A DNA stretch of 64,000 nt from Rhodopirellula halodulae (GTDB taxonomy: Bacteria; Planctomycetota; Planctomycetia; Pirellulales; Pirellulaceae): assembly GCF_020966775.1 (NCBI RefSeq), contig NZ_JAJKFV010000009.1, positions 248,001 to 312,000 on the forward strand, read 5' to 3'. The notes under the pieces were generated by a model. The model had not been told where the DNA came from and did not search any database. It saw only the letters and a list, made by a program, of their open reading frames with translations. Both the position numbers and the translations under genes were made by a program. The stretch's first letter is position 1; every line of letters starts with the position of its first letter. This document shows positions 3,559-22,986 of this stretch, piece by piece.

Positions 3559-3585
3559 CTCTGGAGATCCGTTTTACAACGGCAA

Positions 3586-4704: not shown

Positions 4705-5213
4705 GCACCTCCTGTGTTGATGGCAAGCCAACTTGATCCGCTCCATTGCTGACCCATCACGGTTCTTGCCTGTCACGTGATGCCATTTCGTCACCAAGTT
4801 CGCGGCCAACGCAGGGAACGCGAACAACTCAATCAATCCGTGCGAGTCCATAAACTTTCGCGGACCGAAACAGTTTCCGGTTAAAAGTGTGCAAGGATGG
4901 CACAGGTTCAAGTCGATTGGCCCGTCAACGTGCGTTGACGGACCAGCCGGTAGCGGGTCACGTGTTACAATGACCATGTTGAGAATTGAACGGTTTCAAT
5001 AATCACCGCCAAGACAAGTCGCGATGATCAGCACGACCGGCAGGCCTTACCGTCGGGCAGTCTGCTGATGCGTTCGTTGACGTGACAACCTGGCCGCCGC
5101 TTTCCACCTCCAACGATGGATGGCGTCATCGCAGTCGCCAACGGCCGCAGCGCGGCCTTCCTTGCCAACTGTTCAGGACAACCAAGTTCGATTCACCCGA
5201 GAGCGAGATAGGA
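4705..5213. promoter_or_regulatory. Divergent intergenic region with a perfect 20-bp palindrome
   Basis: This is a 509-bp non-coding region between the divergent barrel-protein and transporter genes. At 4922-4941 CCGTCAAC and GTTGACGG flank GTGC, a perfect 8-bp dyad typical of a dimeric repressor operator. TACAAT at 4966-4971 is a possible -10 for the rightward transporter genes, but no -35 at normal spacing is obvious. Regulator unknown. Confidence 0.45.
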
Positions 5214-6941
5214 ATGGTAGACGCGGCGGACAATCTTTCGATTGCGGCAATGGATCCGGAACAATTGCCGATCCCTCAGCACCAACTTCACGATTGGCCA
5301 CACTTCGTTGGGCTCTACGCGGGAGAACACGTTGCCGCCACCGAGTTCGTCATCGGTGCCACCTTCGTGGCCATGGGAGCTTCCACGAAGGACATTTTGA
5401 TCGGTTTGCTGATTGGGAACTTTCTCGCGATTCTCAGTTGGACATTGATCACCACGCCGATCGCCGTTCAGACTCGACTCAGTCTTTATACCTATCTCGA
5501 GAAGATTGCCGGTGATTCGATGACTCGCCTGTACAACTGGGCGAATGTGTTGATCTTCACTGTGATCTCGGCGGCGATGATCACGGTCTCGTGCACCGCC
5601 GTGCGATTGCTCTTCAATATCCCGGCCCAGTTGCAGTGGTACCCAACGGACCTGCCTTTCGTTGCCGTCGTGTTGGCCGTCGGAATGATTGTGGTGCTGA
5701 TTGCGATGTATGGCTTCAATGCCGTCGCCGAATTTTCAGGCCTCTGCGGCCCATGGTTGGTGGTGATGTTTGTTAGCGGAGCGTTCGTGCTCTACCCCGC
5801 GCTCGCCGAATCGGTGCTCGGGCGAACGACACTTGAAGGTTGGGCAGACTTCCTGGCGATCGGTGACCACTCGATTTGGACTGGCCTCAACAGCGAGGGC
5901 AAACCTGGGATTGGATTGTGGGAAGTTGCCGGATTTGCCTGGGCCGCCAACACCATCACACACTTCGGACTGATCGACATGGCTTTGTTGCGATACGCCA
6001 AACGAACGGTCTACGGATTGTGCACCAGCGCGGGCATGTTGTTCGGCCACTACATCGCTTGGATCGCGTCAGGGATCATGGGGGCGGGGGCGGCCGTATT
6101 GCTGAAGACGAGCATCGTTGAATTGGATCCCGGTGACGTAGCTTTTCGAGCTTTGGGAATGTCTGGCTACGTGATCGTCATCGTCGCGGGATGGACGACG
6201 GCCAACGCGAATTTGTATCGCGCTGGTTTGGCCGCTCAAGCAATCTTTCATGATCGTTCGCGAAAGAAGGTCACCTTTGTCGTTGGGTGTGTGACCGTCG
6301 CGGTCGCGTGTTTCCCCTTCGTTTTTCGTCAGATTTTGCCTTTGCTGACCTACGCAGGTTTGATCGTCGTGCCTGTGGGGGCGATCGTGTTCGCCGAGCA
6401 CGTTGTTTTTCCACGCATTGGATTCACACGCTATTGGGCGCGGTATCGGAATCTGCCACACAGCGTTCCTGCGATTGCGTCGTGGATCGTCGGTTTGGCG
6501 TTTGGATTTGGGCTGAATGCGATGAATCTGCTTTCGTTTTACTACCTGTTCCTGCCGACTTGGTTGGTGACCATCGTCGTTTATACGCTCTTGGCCAAGA
6601 GTTACGGCGCTGCGGAGTCCTATCCTGAGCAGGAGGCCAAAGAGGCACGCCTGCAGTCGGCCATCAAACAATTTCAGCACGAACAAGCGATATCAGAAGG
6701 CGAACCGATGAAGGATGTTCGCACAAAAACCAAGGTGTTTCGCTGGATATCGCGGGTCAGTCTGATTCTAATCCTGGTACTCGCTTCGCGTGTTTTGTTA
6801 CAGAGTCCCGATGTGCCGACGTATGAGGCAAACCGAGACATCTTCTACACTTGGGCATTCGTGCTGACCCTGACGTACTTCGGGTTTGCCTATTGGGTTT
6901 TGAATCGTCTCAAGTCGCTCAACTTGCAAACTGCTCATTGA
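5214..6941 (+). CDS. NCS1-type purine/cytosine permease-like transporter
   Basis: This is an inner-membrane transporter of about 575 aa with at least 12 hydrophobic segments. The start of the core (HDWPHFVGLYAGEHVAATEF, then ATFVAMGAS and GNFLAILSW) resembles nucleobase:cation symporter-1 and related families. After the core there is a charged linker (about residues 480-510) and two further membrane segments at the C-terminus, longer than usual. The frame is open from 5082, but the ATG at 5214 begins the conserved part; upstream residues are Arg/Gln-rich and unlike protein. A mannitol-dehydrogenase-family gene starts 20 bp downstream, so the substrate may be a polyol or related compound instead of a nucleobase (inference). 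Confidence 0.75.
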   Translation: MVDAADNLSIAAMDPEQLPIPQHQLHDWPHFVGLYAGEHVAATEFVIGATFVAMGASTKDILIGLLIGNFLAILSWTLITTPIAVQTRLSLYTYLEKIAGDSMTRLYNWANVLIFTVISAAMITVSCTAVRLLFNIPAQLQWYPTDLPFVAVVLAVGMIVVLIAMYGFNAVAEFSGLCGPWLVVMFVSGAFVLYPALAESVLGRTTLEGWADFLAIGDHSIWTGLNSEGKPGIGLWEVAGFAWAANTITHFGLIDMALLRYAKRTVYGLCTSAGMLFGHYIAWIASGIMGAGAAVLLKTSIVELDPGDVAFRALGMSGYVIVIVAGWTTANANLYRAGLAAQAIFHDRSRKKVTFVVGCVTVAVACFPFVFRQILPLLTYAGLIVVPVGAIVFAEHVVFPRIGFTRYWARYRNLPHSVPAIASWIVGLAFGFGLNAMNLLSFYYLFLPTWLVTIVVYTLLAKSYGAAESYPEQEAKEARLQSAIKQFQHEQAISEGEPMKDVRTKTKVFRWISRVSLILILVLASRVLLQSPDVPTYEANRDIFYTWAFVLTLTYFGFAYWVLNRLKSLNLQTAH

Positions 6942-8724: not shown

Positions 8725-9390
8725 ATGCAGAAACTTGTCGACGGCATCCATAAATTTCAACGCGAATCGTTCAGCCGTGATCAGAAGCTGTTTGAAACGT
8801 TGGCGGAAGGTCAAAACCCGTTGGCTCTGTTCATCACATGTTCGGATTCGCGGATCGACCCGAGTCGGTTGACCCAGACGAATCCGGGGGAGTTGTTCAT
8901 TCTGCGGACGGCGGGAAACATCGTTCCTCCCTACGGCAGCGTCTTTGCCGGGGAAGCGGCCACGATTGAGTACGCCGTCAGTGCGTTGCAAATCAAAGAC
9001 ATCATCATCTGCGGGCATTCCCACTGCGGTGCGATGGGCGGACTGCTGAACTTGGCCGCGGTCGAGAAGATGCCAGCGGTGAAGCAGTATCTGCAGCACG
9101 CGGAAGCGACTCGCCGAATCGTGGAGGAGAACTACGAGCACCTGACGGACCCGATCAAGCGTCTGACGCTGACGGTCGAGGAGAACGTGCTGGTCCAGTT
9201 GGAAAGCCTAAAAACTCATCCGTCGGTGGCCGCCGCGATCGGACGCGGCGACTTGAAGTTGCATGGATGGGTTTACAAGTTCGAAACGGGAGAAGTCTTC
9301 GGTTTCAACCCAGACAAAAATGCGTTCTTGCCGCTCGAAGACGTGTCCCCCCAAGCCAGCACACCCGACCGAACGCTACCTCAAATCTGA
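8725..9390 (+). CDS. Beta-class carbonic anhydrase
   Basis: Catalyses reversible CO2 hydration. The zinc ligands of the beta class are present: Cys in [11 protein letters not shown] with the Asp-Arg dyad, and His-x-x-Cys in [11 protein letters not shown]. Length is 221 aa, soluble, with no signal peptide. The ATG follows AGGA at normal distance. There is a 234-bp non-coding gap upstream with nothing recognised, and a REP pair lies directly after the stop. Confidence 0.95.
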
Positions 9391-9391
9391 A

Positions 9392-9454
9392 GTAGCCATC
9401 ACACTCCGTGTGATGCAGCGTTATTAAATCCATCACACGGAGTGTGATGACTAC
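9392..9454. repeat. REP pair (BIME-like) left of the RAYT gene
   Basis: GTAG at 9392 precedes the hairpin CATCACACTCCGTGTGATG (9397-9415). A mirror copy CATCACACGGAGTGTGATG lies at 9431-9449, followed by CTAC, the complement of GTAG. A GTAG tetranucleotide at the foot of the hairpin is the known recognition feature of REP sequences handled by RAYT enzymes. Confidence 0.9.
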
Positions 9455-9486
9455 TTTGCATGGTGTGATCCACTCGGAGGTGTACC

Positions 9487-10143
9487 GTGAACGAGCTTCA
9501 CTACTTCGATCGTGAGCAAGACTACGAAGTGGTGAATCGGAAGCTCCCACATTGGTCGCAACCGGGGACCGTTTGTTTAATCACTTTTCGAACCGCGGAC
9601 TCGATGCCGCGACACGTGATCGAGCGATGGCAAACCGAACGTCTCGCGTGGTTGGAAGACCACGGGATCGATTCGTTGATCGTGGACTGGCGGCAGCGTT
9701 TGCGTGACCTGCCGACCTCAGAGCAACAAGACTTCTACCGAACGTTTTCAACGCGTTGGCATTCCGAGTTAGATCAGTCGCATGGCCGGTGCGAGTTGCG
9801 TAATCCCGCCCACGCGAAAATCGTTGGCGACAGTTTGCTGCATCGTAATGGTGATGACTATTACCTGAGCGACTTTGTGGTGATGCCGAACCACGTGCAT
9901 CTCCTGGCCGCGTTTGCGACCGGCACCGGAATGCTGAAACAGTGCGAATCGTGGAAGCGTTGGACCGCCAGAAAGATCAACGAGTCGTTGGGACGTCGGG
10001 GACGGTTCTGGCAGCAAGATGGTTTTGATCATCTGGTACGAAGTGAGGAGCAGTTCCAGCACTTCCGACGCTACATCGCGATGAATCCCACAAACGCTGG
10101 CCTGAAGGAAGGTGAGTTCCTTCATTGGTCGAGCCAGGCATAA
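9487..10143 (+). CDS. REP-associated tyrosine transposase (RAYT, Y1/IS200-like)
   Basis: This is an HUH-type single-strand DNA nuclease. Motifs are PNHVHLL (the HUH pair) and, near the C-terminus, FWQQDGFDHLVRSEEQF followed by YIAMNPTNAGL, the signature of the RAYT subgroup. The 218 aa is slightly longer than IS200 transposases, as expected. The GTG start at 9487 has a GGAGGTG six bases upstream. The gene sits between two copies of the same REP pair (9392-9454 and 10146-10208), the second beginning 3 bp after the stop. The whole unit of about 0.8 kb looks like a domesticated or REPtron-type unit. A single REP of the same family at 37498 suggests past activity in trans. Confidence 0.93.
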   Translation: MNELHYFDREQDYEVVNRKLPHWSQPGTVCLITFRTADSMPRHVIERWQTERLAWLEDHGIDSLIVDWRQRLRDLPTSEQQDFYRTFSTRWHSELDQSHGRCELRNPAHAKIVGDSLLHRNGDDYYLSDFVVMPNHVHLLAAFATGTGMLKQCESWKRWTARKINESLGRRGRFWQQDGFDHLVRSEEQFQHFRRYIAMNPTNAGLKEGEFLHWSSQA

Positions 10144-10145
10144 AA

Positions 10146-10208
10146 GTAGCCATCACACTCCGTGTGATGCCGCAGTCTTGAATCCATCACACGGAGTGTG
10201 ATGACTGC
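10146..10208. repeat. REP pair (BIME-like) right of the RAYT gene
   Basis: This is the same design as the left pair: GTAG at 10146, hairpin 10151-10169, mirror hairpin 10185-10203. The closing tetranucleotide reads CTGC in place of CTAC. The spacer between the hairpins differs from the left copy, so the pair is conserved in its hairpins, not as a simple duplication. Confidence 0.9.
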
Positions 10209-10286: not shown

Positions 10287-10301
10287 AGCTACCCCGCTAG
10301 G
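10287..10301. other. Left attachment site core (attL)
   Basis: AGCTACCCCGCTAGG, identical to 27900-27914. It matches the acceptor and T-arm side of the tRNA-Gln 3' end, the usual target of tyrosine integrases. Confidence 0.88.
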
Positions 10302-10354
10302 GAAGCTGAATAACTCGGAAAATACGTGTTTTACGGGGTTTTTCGAATTTCTGA

Positions 10355-10413
10355 TTGGACTGAATTGGACTCTTTTGGACTCGTTTAGACAAATTGTAGA
10401 TAAGGTTATCTAC
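10355..10413. promoter_or_regulatory. Phased repeats and palindrome inside attL, likely integrase or excisionase arm sites
   Basis: TTGGACT occurs at 10355, 10365 and 10375, exactly one helical turn apart, with a degenerate TTTAGAC at 10384. A palindrome GTAGATAAGGTTATCTAC follows at 10396-10413. The 8-mer GTAGATAA recurs at the other end of the element (27835-27842). Position and phasing suit binding sites of the recombination proteins. Confidence 0.5.
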
Positions 10414-10790
10414 ACGTCCAGGCAGTGCAGAACGATGAACAAATCGCCGCCAATCTGATCGCAACCAATCGGTTTCCAGTCCCCTCCTCTGAACCGGTAT
10501 TTCTGTGTCTCCAGCTCAGGCGGAATGTCGTAGATATTGAAGGAATAGACGTTGTCCTGGTTGACTACTCCGAGGGCACAGTAGCGGTTGCCGTCTTGGT
10601 CAAAACACTCCGTTCGAACCCACGGTCCAAAAGCTGAAACGCGACCTGGGCGGACCCAGCGGTCCAGTATCTCACTCATTTCGTCGGACACTTCTTCCGC
10701 AAACTCGCGAACGATTGGCACGTTTTCAACTGCTTCGCATTTTCGCTTTTCGTAAGCAATATCTTCTTTCGACTTGAAGAAATTCAGCAT
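10410..10790 (-). CDS. Hypothetical protein, 126 aa
   Basis: No family recognised. The first 25 residues are charged (NFFKSKEDIAYEKRKCEAVE), then there is a mixed region with FGPWVRTECFDQDGNRYCALG and the C-terminal stretch GGDLFIVLHCLDV. No signal peptide. I chose the ATG at 10790 because GGGAG lies six bases upstream; the frame is open to 10832. It is the only minus-strand gene at the left end of the element, and its stop codon lies inside the 10396-10413 palindrome. Confidence 0.6.
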   Translation of the reverse strand: MLNFFKSKEDIAYEKRKCEAVENVPIVREFAEEVSDEMSEILDRWVRPGRVSAFGPWVRTECFDQDGNRYCALGVVNQDNVYSFNIYDIPPELETQKYRFRGGDWKPIGCDQIGGDLFIVLHCLDV

Positions 10791-10912
10791 CCACATCTCC
10801 CAAAGGGTTTCCAAAAAGCCAGCCCGCAACATAGCGCGTTTTGGAAATCGGTCAACGAAATCCTGACCCGGAATTTAGTTGAACCCCTCTTCTCCAAAGG
10901 TATCCCTTACCC

Positions 10913-11113
10913 ATGTCTCCCAGACAACGCATCAAACACCTCGCGTGGTCCCACAAATTGACCGTGCCCGAGTGTGCCGTCCCTGAAGAAACCGCATCTG
11001 GCGGTGTCGCCCTACGTGGCCGCAAATCCAACGCTGTCTATCTCGTCCGTCCGACGAGAAGTGGCCTACGCGTCGCCATCGAGCATGTCTCGCGATGTGA
11101 GGCACGTTCGTAA
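10913..11113 (+). CDS. Small basic protein, 66 aa, preceding the tape-measure gene
   Basis: ATG to TAA frame whose stop lies one base before the ATG of the tape-measure gene, a spacing that suggests coupled translation. Third codon positions are rich in C. The product is Arg-rich, with a plausible strand-like stretch (GVALRGRKSNAVYLVRP). A longer reading of the tape-measure frame (from 10974) overlaps it, so only one of the two can be right. No family recognised. Confidence 0.4.
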   Translation: MSPRQRIKHLAWSHKLTVPECAVPEETASGGVALRGRKSNAVYLVRPTRSGLRVAIEHVSRCEARS

Positions 11114-11114
11114 A

Positions 11115-14100
11115 ATGTCCGATATCACGCAGAAACTAGGCTTCGATGTCGCGGATGGCGTGGCAGCGTTGGGGAAACTCGACCAAGCGATCAAGCAACA
11201 CACCGGAACGCTGAATAGTCTTCAGGGTGCGTACAAGAACCTGAACACCGGCACCCAGATCAATCAGCAACTCCAGAGTGTCGGCAAGCAAAGCCAAGTT
11301 GCCGCGACCCAAGTCGAAAAAGCAACGAAGCGAATCAACAGTTCATTCCAAGGAGTCAGTCTCGACAACAAGTCAATCGGGACACTCGTCAATCGAGTAC
11401 TTGTCACGCAAGCGGTCGTCTCGCAGTTTGCGAACGTCCGGAACTCTCTTTCGGAGTCGACCGCTGAAGCCGTCAACTTTCAGCAGTCGCTTGCTGAGAT
11501 CCAAACCATCTCGAAGCCGCTCAGGGGCAACACAGACGAGCTTGCAAGCCGTGTGCGGGCCTTGAGTGACGAGTTCAACACTCCTCTCGAAGATGTGAAC
11601 GCGGGCCTCTACGAGACAATCTCGAACCAAGTTGAAGGGACTGCGAACCAGTTCAACTTGCTGACGGAAGCCCAACGTTTGGGTCGCGTCGGCAATGCAT
11701 CAACTGAAGACTCGATCAACATCCTGACTGCCACGCTGAACGGTTTCGGTCGGAAAATGTCGGAAGTGGACGAGTTGTCCGCAAACTGGTTCCGGACAGT
11801 CGACCTTGGCCGTTTGCAAGTCTCTGACGTTGCCAACTCGATCGGTCGTCTTGGCGGTCTGGCGACTCAATCGGGTGTGAGTCTCGAAGAAGTCCAGGCT
11901 GCGTTGGCAACGATCACCATCTCCGGTGTGAAACCAGCGGAAGCCATCACGCAAGTACGCTCAGCGATGACCTCGTTCATTAAACCGAGCGACGCAATGA
12001 AGGACGGAATCCGCGACATCGGGTTCACGAGTTCAGAGCAAGCTATCGGCGTCCTTGGCCTGAGTGGAACGATTGAGAAATTGATCGACAACACCGATGG
12101 CTCGACACAGGCTCTCGCGAAATACTTCCCCAACGTTCGTGCGTTGGCAGGCGTTCTGAACATCGCAGGCGAGAACGCAGAACAGTTTGGCAAGGCTCTG
12201 AAAGTTCTCGAAAATCCGGACGTCTCGAATCTTGAGAAGGCGTTCGATATCGTCACTGGAACGGATGCCGAGAAGGTCACGAAGGAGCTGAACAAACTGA
12301 AGAACTTCCTGACGGAAGAGTTCGGTCAGTCGGTTCTGTCTGCCGGTGCCGGTCTCGTCGACTTGACGGGCGGCATGGACAATCTCCGGGCTGCCGGTGC
12401 GGGAACGATTGGTTCACTTCCGGGGCTTGTCCTGGGAATCGCCGGGTACGCTGCCGAGTTGAAAGGGGCCTCACTACAAACTGAAGCGTTGGAGAACAAC
12501 ACCAAAAGCCTGCGAGGCTCACTGCTGAATGGTGTAGGCAAGGCTGCCGGTGTCGCTGGACTGGCGATTGCTGGGGTTCAAGCCTACAACTCGTTCCAAG
12601 CTGAACAACTTCAGCAGGCTCACGAATTCCGGCGGAAGCAAGACGAACGTGCTCTCGACCAACTGCGTCAGTCAGCCAACGAAGAAGTCAAGATCACGCA
12701 GGATAAGTGGTCTCGTATTCGCGAACTTACAAACGCGAATCTCGCTTCCACCCTGACCGGATTCAATCAGACATCGTTTGGCATCGGCGGCGAAACCGAC
12801 GCTCTTGCGGATTCCGTCGGGACCGGCATTGAGAAGGTTTTCAACGCTCGTGAGAGCATCCTCAACGCTCTGATCCAAACGAGCCAATCACGGCTCCAAG
12901 AATCCCGTGACGCGGCGAAGACAGCCGAAGCAACGATCGTCAACGCTGACGACGAGTTGTTCACCCGAAGGACTTCGCGTCTGGATCAGCAAAAGCAACT
13001 CAATGCCAACCTGGATCTGACTCGAAAACTCGGTCGTGAAGCCGCTGAAGCCTTGGCCGACGCAACGACACCTGAACAGGCTGCCGATGCAAACGAGATT
13101 TTCGCTCGTGCGAAATCGTTTGAGCGTGCTGCACAGAGTGTGGCTCAACAGATCGGTACAAACAAAGCACTTGAGAAGAGTGACCAAGCCTTGCTTGAGT
13201 TGTCCCGCCAACGAGCAAACGCTCAACGCGAGTATAGCACGACACAGCGGAACCAATCAGCAATCGCTTCTGAAGTCGCACGCGAGGAATCTGCAAAGGT
13301 TCGCAGTCTGAAGGAAGAGTTCGCTGGACTTACCGAGGCAATCAAGTTGTTTGACGAGAGCGGCAACCCGTTGTCGCAAGAACAGCGTGTCGCGAACGTC
13401 GCAAAGTTCAATGAAGAGTTGAACGCGTTCCGCAACAATGCAGCCAATCTGGACCAACTCGACTTCGGCGGACTGGTTGACCTGACCAAGATTCAACTGG
13501 ACCTCCAGAACGCGTTGTCGTCCGTCGAGGTTCAAAGTATCCAGTTTGGTGAAGGTGCCCTCAAAGGTCTCAATGACCAATTGCAAAACGCAATCTCGGA
13601 GGCGATGTCGAAGCCCGCGATGAAAGCCGTTACGGACTTGATTCGTGCTGAGACCGGCGAAGAAGTTACCGACCCGTCACGGGTTCAAGGCGGAACCAAC
13701 CGAGCAGAAGACCAAGATGTCCGTCGATCTGAGATCGGTGCGGAACTGCGGGTTCAAGAGGACGCCGCGTCGAGAGCGTTTGGGCGTGTTTCTGACGGGA
13801 CGAATCGGTTGGTGGACAACCTCAACTCCGCCTTCGGAGGTGCTCGAATTGGTTCGAGTTACTTGATTGACGGGTTGTTGTCGACGATCGGGGCGACAGA
13901 CGGAAAAGTCGGTGAAGGGTTTCTCGACTACTCCGCTTTCCTAACTCAGTTGAAAGAGACTGCCAACACTCAAAACACTGATCCTGAGAACCTGCAAGAC
14001 CTTCAGTCGCGATTCGACGAGGTTCAATCAAAGGACTTCTTCGGGGGTGCAACCAACGGTTCGGCAGAACAAGTGCAGCGTTTGTTGAAAACGCTAGAAG

Positions 14101-14654
14101 AAGGGATTCAGGCGACGACCAATGCCGAACAACTTCGTCAAGAGTTGCAAACGGTTCAACCGCAAGTGCCGCAAGTCGACCCGTCGCAAGCAATCCAACG
14201 ACTCGAACTGCAACAGCAGCCACCTCAAACCAATCAGGCAGCGGCTCAAGCCGCTTCGCAAGCAGCGGGTGCCCTTGGTGGAGTGACGGGTGCGGCACGT
14301 TCGGCAGCGGCGGCTCTTGCGAGTATTCAGGCTCCCACCGGTGGTGTTGAAGCCGCCTACTTCGGCAAGACCATTTACCGTGCTGCCGGTGGCGTTGCTC
14401 GTGGAGTCGACCAAGTGAACGCGATCCTCTCGAAAGGTGAACACGTCACCAACGCTCGAAGTGCCCGACGGTTCTCGACTCAACTTCAAGCAATGAATGC
14501 AGGATCGACTCCAGTGTTCACACGTTCGTCGGAGAGTTCAACGACGAACGTCGGAGACGTTCACCTGAACTTCAGCGGTTCGGACCCGGTCAGTGCTCGT
14601 TCGCTTGCACATGACTTCCGCCGGGAACTCCGACGAAAGACCGCAAGGTTGTAG
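11115..14654 (+). CDS. Phage tail tape-measure protein, TP901-like
   Basis: This is an approximately 1179-aa protein. Residues of about 110-310 resemble the TP901 tape-measure core (AEAVNFQQSLAEIQTISKP, EALA-type helices, a region around GVSLEEVQAALATITISG). A short hydrophobic Gly/Ala stretch follows (about 415-470), then long Gln/Glu/Arg-rich coiled-coil stretches. The C-terminus, RAAGGVARGVDQVNAILSKGE then HVTNARSARRF, matches the 'sealed end' seen in tape-measure proteins. In a phage this sets tail length and enters the host during injection. No other tail, capsid or portal gene lies near it, which is very unusual. Start ATG at 11115 is chosen; an in-frame ATG at 10974 is possible. Confidence 0.82.
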   Translation: MSDITQKLGFDVADGVAALGKLDQAIKQHTGTLNSLQGAYKNLNTGTQINQQLQSVGKQSQVAATQVEKATKRINSSFQGVSLDNKSIGTLVNRVLVTQAVVSQFANVRNSLSESTAEAVNFQQSLAEIQTISKPLRGNTDELASRVRALSDEFNTPLEDVNAGLYETISNQVEGTANQFNLLTEAQRLGRVGNASTEDSINILTATLNGFGRKMSEVDELSANWFRTVDLGRLQVSDVANSIGRLGGLATQSGVSLEEVQAALATITISGVKPAEAITQVRSAMTSFIKPSDAMKDGIRDIGFTSSEQAIGVLGLSGTIEKLIDNTDGSTQALAKYFPNVRALAGVLNIAGENAEQFGKALKVLENPDVSNLEKAFDIVTGTDAEKVTKELNKLKNFLTEEFGQSVLSAGAGLVDLTGGMDNLRAAGAGTIGSLPGLVLGIAGYAAELKGASLQTEALENNTKSLRGSLLNGVGKAAGVAGLAIAGVQAYNSFQAEQLQQAHEFRRKQDERALDQLRQSANEEVKITQDKWSRIRELTNANLASTLTGFNQTSFGIGGETDALADSVGTGIEKVFNARESILNALIQTSQSRLQESRDAAKTAEATIVNADDELFTRRTSRLDQQKQLNANLDLTRKLGREAAEALADATTPEQAADANEIFARAKSFERAAQSVAQQIGTNKALEKSDQALLELSRQRANAQREYSTTQRNQSAIASEVAREESAKVRSLKEEFAGLTEAIKLFDESGNPLSQEQRVANVAKFNEELNAFRNNAANLDQLDFGGLVDLTKIQLDLQNALSSVEVQSIQFGEGALKGLNDQLQNAISEAMSKPAMKAVTDLIRAETGEEVTDPSRVQGGTNRAEDQDVRRSEIGAELRVQEDAASRAFGRVSDGTNRLVDNLNSAFGGARIGSSYLIDGLLSTIGATDGKVGEGFLDYSAFLTQLKETANTQNTDPENLQDLQSRFDEVQSKDFFGGATNGSAEQVQRLLKTLEEGIQATTNAEQLRQELQTVQPQVPQVDPSQAIQRLELQQQPPQTNQAAAQAASQAAGALGGVTGAARSAAAALASIQAPTGGVEAAYFGKTIYRAAGGVARGVDQVNAILSKGEHVTNARSARRFSTQLQAMNAGSTPVFTRSSESSTTNVGDVHLNFSGSDPVSARSLAHDFRRELRRKTARL

Positions 14655-14728
14655 AAACCGCCGTTGTTTCGGTCTGGTAGACAGGCTGAATCGTGCGGAT
14701 AGCGATATCGACGAGAAGGGGCCTAGGA

Positions 14729-14844
14729 GCCTCGCTGACGCGATTTAGACTCGGGTGGCTGTGGTGACCCTCACCTGGCAGCTTGAGCAGCGTCAGCGAG
14801 GCTGGAGAACGCAGCGAAAACAGCGAGAATTCAGGGGTCACCAC
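14729..14844. repeat. Two interleaved inverted repeats after the tape-measure gene
   Basis: GCCTCGCTGACGC (14729-14741) pairs with its complement at 14790-14802. GTGGTGACCC (14761-14770) pairs with its complement at 14835-14844. The order is A-B-A'-B', the layout of a pseudoknot, or of two alternative hairpins. No T-run follows. Confidence 0.6.
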
Positions 14845-15218
14845 CCGTGAGGATGTCCGGGGAGTAAAACGCAGATTCGGCTCTACACCCTTATTTTTTA
14901 TATGATTTGTTTTCGTTGTTGAAATTGTGTATTAGCTGATAATGCAAGATGTTGATTTTACCCTTGTTTTGACGTAAGTAGTATATTCCAAAGGACTTAC
15001 GGCGATATTTATGGTGGAGTCGTACTGACTGTGCGGGTTATTCATGCGACTAAAACCGTAATCGTTACAATCATCACCACCCCGGAGAGGGTGTGTCACA
15101 TTGATAGTGTACGTGCGTAACCTTATGGGTTTGGTCTGAGAACGGGTTTGGCGGAGTAATCGCACCGATTGCGGATCTCGATCAGTTACGGTGCCATCTT
15201 TCACATAGCGGGGCGGGC
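14845..15218. other. AT-rich intergenic region of the element
   Basis: No convincing gene. The first 140 bp are clearly AT-rich relative to the surroundings (TTATTTTTTATATG at about 14891-14904). A minus-strand open frame (14932-15204) has no ribosome site or family feature and is not called. The region probably carries the promoter of the DUF2513 operon. Confidence 0.45.
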
Positions 15219-15581
15219 ATGAAGCGAGACATGGAACTCATTCGCAGGATTCTCTTTGCGATCGAAGACTGCGACGACGGAGCGGTGCCGAGAGAGTTCG
15301 AGATTGAGGGCTACTCGCAAGACCAAATTCGATATCACTGCTACCAAATCTATCTAGGTGGCTTGGTTGACGCTGTACCTCAGGCCAGACTGCAACACAA
15401 AGTACCAAACTTGCAGATTACCCATCTGACGCCGGCAGGACATGATTTCATCGACCACGCTCGTGACGACACCCTATGGAGACGAGTTCGTGCGAAGCTG
15501 GGGGATGCATCGATCGACGTGACCCTCGCGGGTTTGAAGGCAGCAGCGATTCAAGCCGTAAAAAGTCAATTTGGCGGATGA
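15219..15581 (+). CDS. DUF2513 family protein
   Basis: The N-terminus MKRDMELIRRILFAIED is the hallmark of the DUF2513 family of small phage and island proteins, which read as winged-helix-like. The middle ITHLTPAGHDFIDHARDD also fits this family. 120 aa, no signal peptide. The next small gene overlaps its stop by 4 bp (ATGA). Role unknown; family members are often found in prophages. Confidence 0.85.
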   Translation: MKRDMELIRRILFAIEDCDDGAVPREFEIEGYSQDQIRYHCYQIYLGGLVDAVPQARLQHKVPNLQITHLTPAGHDFIDHARDDTLWRRVRAKLGDASIDVTLAGLKAAAIQAVKSQFGG

Positions 15582-15766
15582 AATTCAAAGCCGAAACCAC
15601 GGAAGCCGGAAAGCTTGGCATCGCTGAGTTGCTTACCCGCTACGCCAACGAGCAATGGCTCGGCGAGCATTACACTCCAGAGCAAGCCGCTAGCCTGATC
15701 GTGGATCGGTTCCGCCGTCAGGTCGAAACAGAACTCGCGATGATCGAGCTGAAGGCTGAGAAGTAG
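15578..15766 (+). CDS. Hypothetical protein, 62 aa
   Basis: Begins with an ATG overlapping the DUF2513 stop by 4 bp, so it is probably translated by coupling. The product is helical and acidic-basic mixed (TRYANEQWLGEHYTPEQAAS), with no family recognised. The frame is open upstream to 15476, but that part overlaps DUF2513 and lacks coding character. Confidence 0.6.
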   Translation: MKFKAETTEAGKLGIAELLTRYANEQWLGEHYTPEQAASLIVDRFRRQVETELAMIELKAEK

Positions 15767-15873
15767 CCGTCGTCATCGCTCCTGCAAGAGTTTCACGCGG
15801 TTTGATAAACTAACTGCGAACCACGATGGACCAAACGTGTCCGTGATCCCCGTACATTCGAGAGTGGCCCCGA

Positions 15874-16782
15874 GTGGGAAAGGCTAGAGAACGACTGCAA
15901 CGCATCGGTGATGTGATCGACGATTATGGGCTTGCCTATGCTGCTCTCATTTCGGGTTTGATGTTTGGAGCTTTTGGCGTATTCACCAGTGATGAATTTC
16001 GCTCGCTATTCCCCGAGAAATATCAAGGTCCAGTCAAAGCCGTCGCGTTTGCTGGTGCGGGAATTTCACTTGTCTGTGCAGTTGTTTTTGGGTGGAAACA
16101 GATTGGACAGCAAGATCGCTTCTCGGAATTTGAAAGATCAGTTGAAAAGGAGCGGGAAGAGAGCGAGGCTACAGTCAGAGAGTTGAAGGAACAGATCGCG
16201 GAGCTAGCCGACGAAAACAGACTTATTGCTGAGAATGTGCAAAACCTAGTTGAAGGCTATCTCTTTCGTTTCGCCACGGGGTTACTTGGTTTTGGAACGC
16301 GAGACGTGAACTCTGAGCGTGTAACGCTTTATTTCCATGACCCCGCTGGGAACTTCATCCCTATTGGCCGCTACTCTGAAAACCAGGCTTATCGCCAACT
16401 AGGCAAATCAAAACATTCAAATTGTAAGGGGTGCATCGGACGAGCATGGAATGATGACTGGTGTTTTGACGATAACTTTGCTGACCCTGAGCGAGCTTGG
16501 AAGGGATACGTAAGACAGCATGAAAGGTATGGTTTTGATGAAACGGCTGTCGAAGGATTTTCGATGCGTTCACGTTTGTATTGCGGGTGCCGCATCAAAG
16601 ACACTGACGAAAATGAACCAATCGCGGTGATCGTGATTGAGTCAACCGAACCGGACAGGTTCACGGAAGATGAACTCAAAGCAGCGTTGCTTAGAGGCGA
16701 GATGAGATTCCTGTCTGACTTGGTCGAAGGGCTACGGGATTCAGTAATGAATCCTAGTCGAGTTGCAGAGTTGGGTTACTGA
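15874..16782 (+). CDS. Membrane protein with coiled coil and GAF-like domain, partner of Panacea gene
   Basis: 302 aa with a GTG start. Two membrane segments near the N-terminus (about residues 20-40 and 62-80), then a charged coiled coil (about 88-125; KEREESEATVRELKEQIAEL). The C-terminal region of about 160 residues reads as a GAF-like sensor fold (RVTLYFHDPAGNFIPIGRYS, CKGCIGRAWND, SMRSRLYCGCRIKD, PIAVIVIEST). The next gene begins one base after the stop, so the two form an operon. Panacea proteins are antitoxins for many unrelated toxins, so this may be a membrane-acting toxin or sensor-effector (inference). The GAF assignment is by pattern and not proven. Confidence 0.6.
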   Translation: MGKARERLQRIGDVIDDYGLAYAALISGLMFGAFGVFTSDEFRSLFPEKYQGPVKAVAFAGAGISLVCAVVFGWKQIGQQDRFSEFERSVEKEREESEATVRELKEQIAELADENRLIAENVQNLVEGYLFRFATGLLGFGTRDVNSERVTLYFHDPAGNFIPIGRYSENQAYRQLGKSKHSNCKGCIGRAWNDDWCFDDNFADPERAWKGYVRQHERYGFDETAVEGFSMRSRLYCGCRIKDTDENEPIAVIVIESTEPDRFTEDELKAALLRGEMRFLSDLVEGLRDSVMNPSRVAELGY

Positions 16783-16783
16783 T

Positions 16784-17254
16784 ATGGACACGCTTCAGGA
16801 CATTATCGCGTATCTGCTAAAGCATTATCCGCATAAAAACGAGCTGTCAAATGCACGGCTGACCAAGATGGTGTATTTAGCCGATTGGCGAAATGCTGTC
16901 CTTGCAAGGCGGCAGCTAACGGACATCGACTGGTACTTCGACAACTACGGTCCATTCGTGTCCGACGTGAAGCAAGCTGTTCAACAAGAGCCAGACATTT
17001 TTACTGTCCGTAAGACCGAGAATCTGTACGGAAACTCTAAAACCTTGATTGAATTGAACGACGACTCTTATCAACCGTCCCTCTCGAAAGCGACGAAGGA
17101 GGTGCTCGATCATGTTATCGAAACGACCAAGCAGCTGGGGTGGAACGGGTTCATTAGTCTGGTCTACGGAACTTACCCCATAGCTTCATCTCCACGCTAT
17201 TCGATGCTTGATTTAGTTGCCCTTGCCTCAAAGTACGTGGACCGTCAGAAGTAG
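16784..17254 (+). CDS. Panacea domain (DUF4065/SocA-like) protein, likely antitoxin
   Basis: The 156-aa product from the ATG at 16784 contains the family core LSNARLTKMVYLADW and WYFDNYGPFVSDVKQAV, with the C-terminal SLVYGTYPIASSPRYSMLDL. These are typical of Panacea/DUF4065 proteins such as SocA. The family is known as a promiscuous antitoxin domain in PanTA modules and as a proteolytic adaptor in SocAB. The gene starts one base after the membrane/GAF-like gene (toxin-candidate-first order). It ends 1 bp before a convergent thermonuclease gene. Confidence 0.85.
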   Translation: MDTLQDIIAYLLKHYPHKNELSNARLTKMVYLADWRNAVLARRQLTDIDWYFDNYGPFVSDVKQAVQQEPDIFTVRKTENLYGNSKTLIELNDDSYQPSLSKATKEVLDHVIETTKQLGWNGFISLVYGTYPIASSPRYSMLDLVALASKYVDRQK

Positions 17255-17255
17255 G

Positions 17256-17897
17256 TTAAGGTTTGCAGGTTCCACACGGCTCGTAAGCCGACACGGCACG
17301 CGACAGCGGAATTTCTCTCGCTGAGTCGGTGAGGTGTCGGCACCCTGCCGAATGGTACTTCGTGCCTGATCTAGTGATGAAAACGACTGCGTCGGAATCG
17401 CGAATCGAATCAAGCTCTTTGGGAAGAGATGACGGAATACGCTGACCGTTCCGATAATCCCAGGGTGCAATCCTGCGGGCGTCGGCCCAAAGTCCGCGTG
17501 AAGCCTCTCTCGCTTCGTTTTGCAGTGACTGGAGATTCGCGTCGTCTGAGTACTTCACGTAGTGCCACGCGAGTCCCTGCTCAACGAGATGAGCATTCAC
17601 GTCGATGCCGTCTGCGATGACTGTCGCGAGCTTTCGACCGTAGCGGTCGTCGGAGTCGATGAGCAGTTCCAGCTCGGCATCGTTGAGAAGTCGGGTGAGC
17701 AAAGCGGTCGCTTCCGGGCCGAATCGCTGGGGCTTTTCCGGGGCGTCGATTCCGAGCAACCGTACGTGGAACGCGTCACCCGACGGAGGCCGGTACACGA
17801 ACGTATCGCCGTCGAGTACACGCTCACACGTTCCGGTTTCTGTTGCGGGTGGATTACATCCGACGAACAGCAGCAGGACAACGAGAAGCCTATTCAT
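17256..17897 (-). CDS. Lipoprotein thermonuclease (SNase-like)
   Basis: 213 aa. The N-terminus is a signal with lipobox-like LLLFVGC. The nuclease core shows CERVLDGDTFVYRP, RLLGIDAPEKPQ (metal and catalytic Arg region), DRYGRKLATVIADGIDVN and LVEQGLAWHY, all classic for staphylococcal-nuclease-like enzymes. A C-terminal segment KYHSAGCRHL ... CGTCKP has Cys/His pairs like those often attached to such nucleases. It would act outside the cytoplasmic membrane on DNA or RNA. Its start overlaps the upstream 72-aa gene by 8 bp. Confidence 0.88.
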   Translation of the reverse strand: MNRLLVVLLLFVGCNPPATETGTCERVLDGDTFVYRPPSGDAFHVRLLGIDAPEKPQRFGPEATALLTRLLNDAELELLIDSDDRYGRKLATVIADGIDVNAHLVEQGLAWHYVKYSDDANLQSLQNEAREASRGLWADARRIAPWDYRNGQRIPSSLPKELDSIRDSDAVVFITRSGTKYHSAGCRHLTDSAREIPLSRAVSAYEPCGTCKP

Positions 17898-18108
17898 TGG
17901 CTTGATGTGGAACGATCTCGCAGTCGGACGGGTTGGTCAGCCAGCATTCGACTAAGTCGCCGGTCGGACCTTCGGCAACGAAGCCGAACAGGTCGTCGTA
18001 ACCGTCACTGTCCGCGAGGGTTCCCTTGATTTTGTAGCCGACCAATTGGTCGAGTTGGTTCTTGATCTGTTCGGCGATTGCAGCGTCAACATCGGTGTTT
18101 TCCGGCAC
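17890..18108 (-). CDS. Hypothetical protein, 72 aa
   Basis: Acidic small protein (NTDVDAAIAEQIKNQLDQLV then GYDDLFGFVAEG). Its 3' end overlaps the thermonuclease start by 8 bp, so the two are one operon. No family recognised, no signal peptide. It could be unrelated to the nuclease despite the coupling. Confidence 0.6.
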   Translation of the reverse strand: MPENTDVDAAIAEQIKNQLDQLVGYKIKGTLADSDGYDDLFGFVAEGPTGDLVECWLTNPSDCEIVPHQANE

Positions 18109-18239
18109 TATGTCGTCCTCAAAACGTCGTGAATGACCAAACGTGTCACGTTCAGTTGCGATTTTAGCTGTTCGCGTCGGTAGGCAACTTTTGACCGACC
18201 CGCAATAATGCTAGCAAACGATTCCCATCAAGGAAGAAC

Positions 18240-19409
18240 ATGAAGTCGATTGAACTATTTGCAGGTGCGGGCGGACTCGCTCTCGGCGTTGAAGCAGCGG
18301 GATTCGAGAATGTGGCTCTGTACGAGTGGAACCACAATGCCTGTGACACGTTGCGTCGCAATCGGACGCAGCATGGTTGGGAAGTAGTTGAGGGCGATGT
18401 CGCAGATCAGGATTTTCGTCCATTCAGAGATGAGATTGATTTGGTAACAGGCGGACCACCCTGTCAGCCTTTTTCGATGGGTGGCAAACATAAAGCTCAG
18501 AATGACAAGCGGGACATGTTCCCACAGGCGGTGCGAGTTGTTCGAGATATTCGGCCCAAGGCGTTCATCTTCGAGAATGTTAAAGGGCTGACACGACGTA
18601 GCTTTGCAAACTACTTCAGCTACATTCGCCTGCAATTCAGTTACCCCACGATCACCGCGAAACGTGGCGAAGAGTGGATGTCGCATCTCGCCCGTCTTGA
18701 AGCACTCGATTCAAAGTGCAGCTTTCGCGGCTTGACATACAAAGTCATTCCAAGACTATTCAATTCAGCACTTTACGGTGCGGGCCCCGGCGTCCCACAA
18801 CGTCGAGAACGGGTGTTCTTTGTCGGCGTCCGAAGCGACCTGGGATTGGAGGTGAACCTTCCAACAGAGGAAACGCATTCGGTAGATGCTTTGCTACACG
18901 ATCAATGGGTGAGCAACGTTTATTGGCATCGACACAAGTTGAAGGTCCCCACGGTGCCGGAGAAACTCGCTCGCAAGGTGGAAAGGTTACAGGACTACAA
19001 CCGCGATATGTTGGGTACTGCTTGCCGTACCGTTCGAGACGCAATTTCAGATCTGCCGAATGTTGGTCCTGGACGTCGAAGCCGATCGATTCCAAATCAT
19101 TTCTTCAATCCCGGAGCACGCTCATACGCTGGTCATACGGGGAGTCCCTACGACCAACCTGCGAAGACCCTGAAGGCTGGCGATCACGGCGTTCCAGGTG
19201 GTGAGAATACCTTGCAGTTCGCAGACGGCTCGGTGAGGTATTTCTCGATACGAGAATGTGCTCGGCTTCAGACCTTCCCAGACGATTGGATTATCGAAGG
19301 TTCCTGGACCGAAGGAATGCGACAGCTCGGCAACGCAGTCCCGGTGAAGTTGGCTCAGCTTGTCGCCGAAAGCGTTGCTGGAACGCTCAAGAAGGCGGGA
19401 AATGTATGA
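18240..19409 (+). CDS. DNA (cytosine-5-)-methyltransferase
   Basis: 389-aa C5 methyltransferase with all main motifs in order: ELFAGAGGLALG (I, AdoMet), GGPPCQPFS (IV, catalytic Cys), FENVKG (VI), PQRRERVFFVG (VIII), and LGNAVPVKLA (X). The target-recognition region lies between VIII and IX. The ATG follows AAGGAAG. It runs convergently into a GIY-YIG restriction enzyme gene and overlaps it by 23 bp, making the methylating half of a type II restriction-modification system. Confidence 0.95.
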   Translation: MKSIELFAGAGGLALGVEAAGFENVALYEWNHNACDTLRRNRTQHGWEVVEGDVADQDFRPFRDEIDLVTGGPPCQPFSMGGKHKAQNDKRDMFPQAVRVVRDIRPKAFIFENVKGLTRRSFANYFSYIRLQFSYPTITAKRGEEWMSHLARLEALDSKCSFRGLTYKVIPRLFNSALYGAGPGVPQRRERVFFVGVRSDLGLEVNLPTEETHSVDALLHDQWVSNVYWHRHKLKVPTVPEKLARKVERLQDYNRDMLGTACRTVRDAISDLPNVGPGRRSRSIPNHFFNPGARSYAGHTGSPYDQPAKTLKAGDHGVPGGENTLQFADGSVRYFSIRECARLQTFPDDWIIEGSWTEGMRQLGNAVPVKLAQLVAESVAGTLKKAGNV

Positions 19410-20265
19410 CTTGGTTGGGATAGTTTTTGGTCGGTTTGTATTCCAGCAGGATATGACTTGGTAGCACGGCTACCCTCCAATCATCACCCAATGCGGTCGC
19501 AATTCGAACAATCGTATCGATTGCGGTCGGCTGGGATGAAGGAAGTGTGACTTCACCGGCTAGGTTCCCGCTGTTCGGGTGCGTTTTGAACCAAAAGGGT
19601 AAGTCTCGGCGAAGGTCAGAGCAGAGTTGGCTAACCTCGTACTCGCCCGCTTCAAGCCAATGACAGACAAATTGTTCGTTTACTGGAAAGCGAGTGAAAA
19701 AGTGGTCTGTTCCGTAGGCCGTTTCATATCTCCTGATCCCAGGTTCGTTCCCTCCGAAACCCTTTGAATTCCATTGCTTCTTGGTGCCATAGTGTTCGAT
19801 GAGATGGCTCTCAGGAAGGAATGGATTCCAGGTGCTCGCAAACACGGACGTTTTGAATCCAACTTCTGTCAGTTCAATGTTTTTCCGACCAGAGATTGTG
19901 CGACGATGTTTTTTTAGCCGGGTCACTACGGAAGAATCGGCTTTCCCGATGTAAACGGGTTCGCGATTGTGAAACAGGATGTAAACGCCAGGACCATCCA
20001 GTCCGGCATCGAGTTTTTCGATTGTCAGAGGAGCTAGTGGCGTCGCATCCAGACAAGCTCTGATTTGCTCGAATAGCGGCGTTGCTAAATCAAACTCAAA
20101 CTCGCTGAATCCATCCACTCTCAGTTCCGTCGTTGCCGGGTTCAAACAGAAATTGACCACAATTGACTTGGTCTCATCCAAGCTGATACATGGGGGGTGC
20201 CGTCGTGACAACCCCGATCCGTTCAGCCAGTGAAAGTGGAGTGAGACGCAATTCCCGTTTATCAA
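19387..20265 (-). CDS. GIY-YIG restriction endonuclease, Eco29kI-like
   Basis: The 292-aa product has the nuclease core GVYILFHNREPVYIGKADSS (GIY- and YIG-like elements), a basic KKHRRTISGRKN, and LPESHLIEHYGTKKQWNSKG with the catalytic Glu and Asn region, then GFGGNEPG. The order and the last motif match the Eco29kI family of type II restriction enzymes, whose known members cut CCGCGG. There is an N-terminal extension of about 80 residues over Eco29kI. The paired C5 methyltransferase is convergent and overlapping. Specificity here is only a guess from the family. Confidence 0.82.
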   Translation of the reverse strand: MINGNCVSLHFHWLNGSGLSRRHPPCISLDETKSIVVNFCLNPATTELRVDGFSEFEFDLATPLFEQIRACLDATPLAPLTIEKLDAGLDGPGVYILFHNREPVYIGKADSSVVTRLKKHRRTISGRKNIELTEVGFKTSVFASTWNPFLPESHLIEHYGTKKQWNSKGFGGNEPGIRRYETAYGTDHFFTRFPVNEQFVCHWLEAGEYEVSQLCSDLRRDLPFWFKTHPNSGNLAGEVTLPSSQPTAIDTIVRIATALGDDWRVAVLPSHILLEYKPTKNYPNQVIHFPPS

Positions 20266-20290
20266 CAGCCACTCGAAAATGGATTTTCAA

Positions 20291-20638
20291 ATGAACATTA
20301 AAACAATCGCAGCCGCTTTCGCTATCGCACTCGCAGCCTTTTGGCTCGGAGACAGCTTCTCAAACGCTCAGCCGGTGTTCGAACAGAGCGGTGATTCGCA
20401 GCTCGGAAGCGTGCCCGCAAAGCTCAAGGGCACATACGTAGTTTCGACGGCTTTGGAAAACATGACGATGATTGCCTTAGTCGATCCAGAGTTTGCGTCT
20501 ATCGATGGGACTCAAATTCTGAAGGGCGTGGTGAGTGAAAAGAACGGTTTCATCCGAGACACTCCATTTACCGGCGGAATGACGTATATCCCGGTGAAAA
20601 AAATACACTCGATTCAGCAACTGATGACGGAAGGCTAG
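20291..20638 (+). CDS. Secreted hypothetical protein, 115 aa
   Basis: A signal peptide is clear (NIKTIAAAFAIALAAFWLG, cleavage near SNAQ). The rest is short and beta-rich with no known family. The ATG at 20291 directly precedes the signal; an in-frame ATG at 20279 is possible. It is divergent from the restriction enzyme gene and may form an operon with the next 53-aa gene. Confidence 0.6.
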   Translation: MNIKTIAAAFAIALAAFWLGDSFSNAQPVFEQSGDSQLGSVPAKLKGTYVVSTALENMTMIALVDPEFASIDGTQILKGVVSEKNGFIRDTPFTGGMTYIPVKKIHSIQQLMTEG

Positions 20639-20641
20639 CGG

Positions 20642-20803
20642 ATGGCAGAAGCCAAGCGTTTTGAAGAGGCGACCGCACGAGCGAAGGAGTGGAAAATACT
20701 CGTTGATGCCGCTCCGACGACTCGGTCTGAACTAGATTTGGCGGTCGAAAGCATTCAGGGGCAACCTGTCACCGAATGGCCAGGCTTTTTTGACACTGAA
20801 TAA
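20642..20803 (+). CDS. Hypothetical protein, 53 aa
   Basis: Begins 3 bp after the stop of the secreted protein gene, ATG to TAA. The product reads as a coherent helical, charged protein (AEAKRFEEATARAKEWKILV) ending in EWPGFFDTE. No family recognised. Close spacing and codon-like third positions support it as a real gene. Confidence 0.5.
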   Translation: MAEAKRFEEATARAKEWKILVDAAPTTRSELDLAVESIQGQPVTEWPGFFDTE

Positions 20804-20872
20804 TAGAGACATGAGGGCCCCGGCAGCCAACGCTCTGAGCCGTGGTTGCAAGATTCGAATTTGACCCTCCCC

Positions 20873-21448
20873 CTACCCCATCGCTAGGTAGCGGGTGACT
20901 GTACGAGTTGACGTATTCATTGACGCGGCGATCTCAGCACGAGTCAGCCCCTTGGCCTTGAGTTCCTTCGCCCTTTCCGGCTTCCCTTTGGTTGTCCCCG
21001 GCTTCCGGCCACCGTATACGCCTCGCTCGCGAGCCGCTGCAATTCCGGCTGCCTGTCGTTCGCGACGGGTCTCCTGCTCCATCTCAGCAACGGCAAACAA
21101 TACGGACGCGATCAGCTTTCCGGTTGCCCCTGCGAAGTCCAGTTGTTGAGTGATGCTGACAACACGGACGCCGGATTCCAACCATTCCGTCAGCGTATTG
21201 ATTCCGTCTCGGAGGCTCCGAGACAACCGATCAAGTTTGTAGACGACTATCGTCTTCACCTCACCGGCGAACACTGCCGTTTGAAGTTTTTCGAACTCTG
21301 GGCGTTTCAGATTGTCGCCCGTCAATTTATCGACAAACCACACCACATCGGTGATCCCGTGGCCTGTGAGCCACTTTCCAATCTCACGCTTCTGCGAAGC
21401 TGCGTTTTGACCAGTAGTTGAAACGCGAATGTAAACAGCAGTTGTCAT
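20873..21448 (-). CDS. Serine recombinase (resolvase/invertase family)
   Basis: 191 aa. The N-terminal catalytic domain starts MTTAVYIRVSTTGQNAASQ, with the nucleophile Ser in YIRVST. It continues with VYKLDRLSRSLRDG (active-site Arg residues), a long helix E region AVAEMEQETRRERQAAG, and a C-terminal HTH (GLTRAEIAASMNTSTRTVTR). It would act as a resolvase or invertase within the element; a palindrome 82 bp upstream could be its site. I chose the ATG at 21448 over one at 21487. Confidence 0.93.
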   Translation of the reverse strand: MTTAVYIRVSTTGQNAASQKREIGKWLTGHGITDVVWFVDKLTGDNLKRPEFEKLQTAVFAGEVKTIVVYKLDRLSRSLRDGINTLTEWLESGVRVVSITQQLDFAGATGKLIASVLFAVAEMEQETRRERQAAGIAAARERGVYGGRKPGTTKGKPERAKELKAKGLTRAEIAASMNTSTRTVTRYLAMG

Positions 21449-21529
21449 TTGTTCGTTCCTGTGGGTAGCCAAAAAAGTATACCCCAAAAGGCCATTCGCG
21501 CAAGCGATTTCTATTCTACTTTTCCTCGT

Positions 21530-21548
21530 GTTTCGACCGTGTCGAAAC
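21530..21548. promoter_or_regulatory. Perfect palindrome upstream of the serine recombinase gene
   Basis: GTTTCGAC and GTCGAAAC flank CGT. It lies between the divergent recombinase gene and the gene at 21571. It could be a recombinase crossover or accessory site, or an operator. Confidence 0.45.
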
Positions 21549-21570
21549 CAAAGACCCTAATTGTCCACCC

Positions 21571-21828: not shown

Positions 21829-21906
21829 TTCACGAATTCGATTTGCGCGTTTCGGCATCCGGTGCAATGGTTGGTCATCACCCAGCTCACACCGGAGACC
21901 GAAACC

Positions 21907-22116: not shown

Positions 22117-22127
22117 CTGCCGAGCGG

Positions 22128-22165
22128 ACGGGGGTCGGAGCGAGTTGTTCCGGCCCCCGTTTTTT
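22128..22165 (+). terminator. Rho-independent terminator
   Basis: ACGGGGG-CGGA pairs with TCCG-CCCCCGT (one G-T pair between), followed by a run of five T. It ends the small-gene operon at 21571-22116. Confidence 0.88.
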
Positions 22166-22180
22166 AATTGGAGAACACAT

Positions 22181-22980: not shown

Positions 22981-22986
22981 GTCGGC

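Follow-up and report, generated by a model that had tools for sequence, protein, structure and literature searches.

The window analysed here, a stretch of 64,000 nucleotides from the planctomycete Rhodopirellula halodulae (contig NZ_JAJKFV010000009.1, positions 248,001 to 312,000), carries a genomic island of 17.6 kb, in which we identified an intact gene for a full-length phage tape-measure protein (TMP). We propose, with a probability of roughly 60%, that this island is a phage satellite whose own TMP is assembled into the tails of a helper siphophage. As judged from sequence, the proposal draws on the limits of the island, the intact TMP, the lack of other recognizable major structural genes, the recurrence of this arrangement in 12 islands, its probably repeated origin and the constraint seen in one pair of TMPs.

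Tape-measure gene and limits of the island

The TMP gene is located at 11115-14654 on the forward strand and encodes 1179 amino acids (aa). Its reading frame is uninterrupted over 10974-14654, with ATG at 11115 as the likely start, the longer frame beginning with GTG at 10974. The protein matches the Pfam family PhageMin_Tail (PF10145; 74.6 bits against the curated cut-off of 33.2), the tape-measure families of PHROGs (best E 6e-24) and a model of six TMPs, which spans it end to end (positions 1-1125), and it is the sole TMP match at E <= 0.01 in the genome from which the window is taken. Windowed identity to phage TMPs peaks in the first 400 residues (about 31-50%) and in the last 80 (50-54%) and is low in the middle, as expected of a ruler with fixed ends. 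Among the 12 matches listed, named phage records aligned over at most 29% of the TMP length with about 31% identity, indicating that none of these isolated phages is a near relative. An open reading frame (ORF) of 66 aa in the ORF list (10913-11113, forward strand), for which no Pfam or PHROG family match was obtained, ends just ahead of the TMP start and is possibly a coupled leader gene.

The original prediction, made from the sequence alone, had claimed a full-length TMP gene with no capsid, portal, large terminase (TerL) or tail tube gene, and this was confirmed by PF10145, by PHROGs and by hidden Markov models (HMMs) of phage gene clusters, which detected no other tail gene such as neighbours the TMP in phages. 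Among the 25 island ORFs scanned with PHROGs, the TMP was the only match to capsid, portal, terminase or tail families. The HMMs were constructed from 21 gene clusters of phage contigs, with the addition of models for the TMP and for a small-terminase-like protein, and when the cluster HMMs were applied to all ORFs of at least 45 aa, the TMP was joined only by a match to the C-terminus of the phage scaffolding protein (25793-26104). By this analysis capsid, portal, TerL and tail operon are all absent from the island, which does not hold the gene set of a complete prophage.

The island extends over 10287-27914 (17,628 bases) and ends in a 15-nt direct repeat at a tRNA-Gln gene. The left attachment (att) site (10287-10301, forward strand) repeats the 3' end of tRNA-Gln and is an exact match to the right site (27900-27914, forward strand), which lies within the 3' end of the integration target itself, tRNA-Gln (TTG) at 27901-27973 on the reverse strand, as located by ARAGORN. 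The repeat was detected by short-word BLAST of the tRNA region, the general direct-repeat search having missed it. In four of the 11 same-genus loci listed, the segment 10263-10301 aligns beside tRNA-Gln (82-90% over 39 nt), indicating that the left limit is an old chromosome junction and that the flank is chromosomal. The tRNA-Gln gene was present in all 13 genomes of the genus sample, and in several same-genus genomes (loci L195, L197, L198, L200 and L203) an ORF that looks by eye like an integrase starts beside it; by this judgement the tRNA gene may serve as a hotspot of integration. Immediately to the left of the island stands a Y1-transposase-like gene (9390-10206; PF01797, 25.3 bits), flanked by two near-copies (92% alike) of a 63-nt palindromic repeat, and this segment looks like a repetitive extragenic palindrome (REP)-associated transposase unit.

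Lone tape-measure genes in other Planctomycetota

The search for relatives with the same lone gene, as proposed in the original prediction, was productive. TMP matches were obtained in 7 of 98 relatives, 13 of 396 genomes of the order and 12 of 392 genomes of the phylum, the samples overlapping and the counts being lower bounds, with two candidates scored per genome in the order and phylum searches and four in the capsid-protein search described below. After reading of the neighbourhoods, a total of 12 lone-TMP loci without tail operon were identified in nine genomes of the host's class: one each in the window and in genomes G055, G079, G260, G111 and G118, and two each in G044 (contigs C91 and C92), G198 and G521. 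The TMP is intact in 11 of these and broken in one (L042, in G079). Nine islands are bounded by direct repeats and range between 13.2 and 17.6 kb: 13.2 kb with a 46-nt repeat (G260), 14.3 kb with 60 nt (G055), 14.6 kb with 44 nt and 16.2 kb with 45 nt (both G521), 15.0 kb with 42 nt (G111), 15.4 kb with 46 nt and 15.7 kb with 31+13 nt (both G198), 16.3 kb with 22 nt (G118), and the window island of 17.6 kb with 15 nt. For L039, L040 and L042 the search gave no att repeat. Full prophages with homologous TMPs were found in G080 (L036/L037) and on contig C76 of G044 (L041/L211), the latter genome, of the same family as the host, thus harbouring lone-TMP islands together with a full prophage with TMP, capsid, portal and TerL. 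Short contigs or distant TMP types were kept outside these counts (G017, G032 with two, G379, G390, G427, G457, G467, G483, G530, G541, G576, G682 and G761 with two), as was G178, a phage fragment as judged by two neighbour genes.

In phages the same gene is set in a different context. Among 74 IMG/VR contigs with a homologous TMP, all carry at least one of three tail clusters flanking the TMP, and at least three of nine core genes are present in 72, in contrast to the lone islands (1782 ORFs), of which 11 carry none of the nine and one, L147, carries a single connector-like gene. The cluster HMMs used for this comparison were derived from the same phage contigs that were scored; names for the capsid, scaffold, adaptor, portal and TerL clusters were taken from PHROGs, and the labels for the phage TMP neighbours (chaperone, tube) are positional, PHROGs naming one of them weakly as a distal tail protein (E 0.0014). 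The PHROG scan of the other islands, from which the TMPs were excluded, covered 132 of the 155 called ORFs after 23 were dropped (ten integrases, the rest duplicates or edge pieces), and for the second batch 25 of the 59 matched families were listed.

In the TMP tree, which was constructed by a quick method and places L148 and the window on long branches, the label of lone or phage origin changes six times, with at least four of the changes forced by strongly supported branches, and the approximately unbiased (AU) test rejected a single clade of lone TMPs (p 0.00016). As the lone TMPs are scattered over the tree rather than united in a single clade, capture of the TMP has probably taken place repeatedly. 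The original prediction had named as its refutation relatives in which the gene sits within a full tail operon, deleted here; such operons do exist in the phages, but the lone TMPs appear to have arisen several times, which is not the picture of a simple deletion. For the lone sisters L145 and L146 (58% identical), the nonsynonymous rate dN is 0.41 and the synonymous rate dS is 2.30, a value near saturation, and the pair is under constraint, dN being far below dS. As a control, the capsid protein of the same phages was searched in 396 order genomes drawn in the same way, giving matches in three genomes compared with 13 for the TMP; the four capsid loci consisted of two full prophages, one 4-kb phage fragment and one lone capsid gene. 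The loci with a lone TMP thus far outnumber all finds of the capsid protein taken together, an argument against simple decay of prophages.

The lone TMPs were compared with phage TMPs in length, giving medians of 981 and 1282.5 aa (10 and 52 rows; p 9e-6) in a test that ignores kinship and counts the broken L042 piece. Within the clade of the window the island TMP is 1179 aa long, against 1225-1299 aa in six of the seven phage rows, the remaining one, L050, being 1092 aa. The lone TMP is shorter than that of the nearest phages in the window clade and in the groups L039/L040 and L042/L147/L148, and not in L183/L185, L145/L146 and L038/L144. The last three of these six groups contradict a rule of invariably shorter lone TMPs, which was accordingly rejected, and a shorter tail is possible for the window island without being general.

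The satellite reading and its alternatives

Two adjacent small genes near the right end of the island recall phage head and packaging genes. A 103-aa protein encoded at 25793-26104 (forward strand), herein referred to as mini-scaffold, is similar to the C-terminus of phage scaffolding protein, its match to the scaffold HMM (19.9 bits, with E 3.2e-5 in a set of 1293 ORFs) being made up of three weak collinear segments; the highest scores were 10.4 bits among 5000 shuffles and 6.4 bits among 959 background ORFs, and no scaffold match was given by Pfam or PHROG. Longer scaffold pieces, likewise without the N-terminal third, are held by L039 and L040 (97.5 and 84.8 bits). The second gene, at 26104-26472 (forward strand), had been predicted to be weakly small-terminase-like, and this gained some support from a separate HMM, with 22.7 bits against 11.4 for the best of 5000 shuffles. 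The matched family lies 2-4.5 kb upstream of TerL in all six phage stretches with both, and a similar match is located directly upstream of the TMP in L145. As the family is given no name by PHROGs and the AlphaFold prediction is poor (pLDDT 57.8, pTM 0.32), the name small terminase is used here tentatively.

The anatomy of the island is that of a satellite: 17.6 kb between att repeats, an integrase and an excisionase at a tRNA gene, a primase-helicase and defence genes. From this and the foregoing we infer helper dependence, tail incorporation, capsid resizing and packaging as follows. Upon infection by, or induction of, a helper siphophage, the island would excise, replicate with its own primase-helicase and borrow capsid, portal, terminase, tail tube, chaperones and baseplate from the helper. 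In satellite tails the island TMP would take the place of the helper TMP, giving rise to a chimeric tail of which it sets the length; as TMP accompanies DNA entry, it may in addition fit the particle to the host or shield it from defences aimed at the helper TMP. The mini-scaffold would compete with the helper scaffold for the capsid protein, leading to smaller heads as in the case of CpmB, and the small-terminase-like protein would direct packaging. The phage lineage of L036/L037 and L053/L161 is our guess for the type of helper, because the TMP and the small-terminase-like protein are both nearest to it. The original prediction had suggested a satellite that alters the tail length of a helper or controls injection; satellite anatomy and the intact TMP, kept repeatedly in the 12 islands without tail operon, support the satellite part of this suggestion, tail incorporation, altered length and injection control being conjectures; the lone TMPs are not consistently shorter.

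Several observations weigh against this reading. Neither TerL nor capsid protein of the L036/L053 phage type was found in the window's own genome (G000), so that a helper would need to arrive from elsewhere or be of a different lineage, and a full prophage of the type was present in only one of eight lone-bearing genomes tested. No homologue of a neighbour-gene chaperone or of a baseplate hub was found, unlike the PLE satellites discussed below, and only half of the lone groups (three of six) have TMPs shorter than those of the nearest phages. The 74 of 74 phage contigs with flanking tail genes exaggerate the contrast to the islands, IMG/VR being chosen for virus-like contigs, and the window TMP sits on a long branch of the tree. 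The mini-scaffold was found in three and the small-terminase-like protein in two of the 12 islands, neither being general, and both matches in the window are weak. For the primase and the integrase of the window, no relative was found in viral contigs.

The TMP could alternatively be an instrument of interference, expressed as a decoy which, by titrating away proteins of the tail tube, chaperones or baseplate, poisons helper tail assembly and protects the host population without necessarily being present in particles. The island does carry a restriction-modification pair and other defence-like genes, and defences of satellites and prophages are known to act on tail assembly (PMC11364771; Rta in PMC12987554). 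For a decoy, however, a complete ruler with both termini conserved would be unnecessary, yet it is intact in 11 of the 12 islands, and the known inhibitors described in these two papers are not TMPs; we therefore consider this explanation unlikely. A further alternative is the use of the TMP for a job outside the tail, such as membrane passage or conjugation-like delivery: most islands indeed lack any other major virion gene, but the two tail-specific termini are conserved, and the scaffold ends in three islands and fibre-like genes in three point to virion assembly, making such a use highly improbable.

Decay of a prophage, in which the TMP is the last remnant of a deleted tail operon and survived by chance through its length, agrees with the broken TMP of L042, with the one or two other phage genes in some islands (fibre-like, connector, c18) and with a search that, started from the TMP, favours such cases. 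Against it stand the intact frame in the window, islands that are crisp, alike in size and bounded by paired att repeats, the repeated origin of lone TMPs without the same neighbours, a dN well under dS in the lone sisters, and the capsid-protein control with only one of four loci alone, and decay is accordingly quite unlikely. The satellite building its TMP into helper tails remains our preferred reading. It may be extended, tentatively and as a possibility rather than an expectation, to a broad class of Planctomycetota 'ruler satellites' that acquire from siphophages individual genes for setting size: the tape measure for the tail and, in certain members, a shortened scaffold or a solitary capsid protein for the head; in the window island two proteins would then set the dimensions of head and tail, with no shell or tube of its own.

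Further genes and comparison with known satellites

Besides the genes described above, the island encodes, on the forward strand, a DUF2513 protein (15219-15581; PF10711, E 1e-25), a 302-aa protein with weak GAF and coiled-coil matches (15874-16782; GAF_2, E 0.034), whose coiled-coil-like stretch weakly matches a PHROG family of virion structural proteins (phrog_1383, E 0.0012), a Panacea (SocA-like antitoxin) domain protein (16763-17254; PF13274, E 1.5e-13), a type II cytosine DNA methyltransferase (18240-19409; PF00145, E 4e-62; PADLOC MTase_II, E 3.5e-120), the D5-type primase-helicase (23379-25790; PF19263, E 1.2e-11; PHROG DNA primase, E 2.6e-48) and an excisionase-like HTH_17 protein (26469-26642; PF12728, E 2.9e-14; also PHROG excisionase families). 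The reverse strand carries a 140-aa ORF with no Pfam or PHROG match (10410-10832), a staphylococcal-nuclease-like protein (17256-17897; PF00565, E 1.6e-23), the probable partner restriction endonuclease of Eco29kI type (19387-20265; PF09517 at 30.6 bits, just below the cut-off of 30.8; PADLOC REase_II, E 3.6e-4), a serine recombinase of the resolvase/invertase type (20873-21487; PF00239, E 2.9e-34) and the tyrosine integrase (26733-27833; phrog_1, E 7e-35). In both lone islands of G198, two secreted-looking proteins are encoded right behind the TMP (L145 13096-15558, L146 12670-15250), the second matching subtilase (PADLOC E 1e-8). One lone-TMP island of G521 includes a bSEFIR-type defence protein (C1:2005491-2007008, L187 1-1008; PADLOC E 2e-63, partial sequence), and adjoining a lone-TMP island of the same genome is a stretch (L192, C1:4276409-4284344) that lacks a TMP and encodes a D5-type primase and, at 34.3 bits, a scaffold-like protein; it could be a further satellite arranged in tandem.

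The original prediction knew of no satellite that employs a TMP in this manner, a statement now out of date, as the PLE satellites of Vibrio cholerae were reported in 2026 to use their own TMP, which replaces the helper TMP in chimeric tails (PMC12987554). According to the same report, PLEs encode TMP together with the chaperone TAC, and PLE11 in addition the baseplate hub protein BhuB; the PLE11 TMP differs by 95 aa and shortens the tails by about 10 nm, and deletion of tmp decreased transduction by 96-99.9%. The window island, if read as a satellite, resembles PLE in encoding a TMP (11115-14654) without a full tail operon. It differs in that the TMP only was found: no homologue of the two clusters upstream, or of the gene downstream, of phage TMPs was detected, in a search that a chaperone of unrelated sequence would escape. 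On the satellite reading the islands would function in the manner of PLEs, but since no chaperone was found, they were not filed as PLEs. Further differences are the contractile tails of the PLE helper ICP1 and, on the side of Planctomycetota, integration at tRNA genes, TMPs akin to those of uncultured phages, and several separate captures.

With SaPI1 and the phage-inducible chromosomal islands (PICIs), the window island shares its size, in the class of about 15 kb, an integrase at a specific att site of tRNA type and a primase of its own; a small protein like the scaffold C-terminus and a small-terminase-like gene are putative further parallels, by weak matches that exceed shuffles. The host phylum is different, and CpmA, an Stl-type regulator and cos/pac sites were not identified in the window island. 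To our knowledge, no TMP is known in SaPI1. The parallel to the mini-scaffold is CpmB of SaPI1, a small protein that shares the C-terminal capsid-binding motif of the scaffold and redirects capsid size (PMC5644958). A lone capsid gene, the one detected in the control search, was found in L210 (G044:C4:1-16000, 2687-5904); its product of 448 aa is about 60% identical to phage capsid proteins, and the gene adjoins, near a contig end, tRNA-Asn and an integrase 57% identical to that of the lone-TMP island L040. This gene recalls Ccm of SaPIbov5, a capsid-protein homologue (PMC8569155).

Putative tmp genes have been indicated for PLE-like elements and for capsid-forming PICIs (cf-PICIs), satellites unrelated to PLEs (PMC12987554, legend to Extended Data Fig. 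10); cf-PICIs carry capsid genes by definition, unlike the window island with no capsid, portal or TerL. The AH14b satellite of Antarctic Pseudomonas (16.8 kb) likewise combines a primase with one tail-related gene, for tail assembly protein I, whereas the TMP there belongs to the helper AH14a and not to the satellite (PMC4936722). Among open-licence papers, no literature on satellites of Planctomycetota was found.

Genome surveys in which TMP genes are counted as prophage debris may overlook satellites, and the present islands represent natural replicates for what a satellite gains from its own ruler, be it length, host entry or escape from defences. Satellite control of the tail was reported for one family in 2026; the islands described herein point to the TMP having been taken several times in another phylum, without a recognizable chaperone gene. 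On this reading they would be an independent variant among TMP-carrying satellites, which differs from PLE in host and in the type of TMP.

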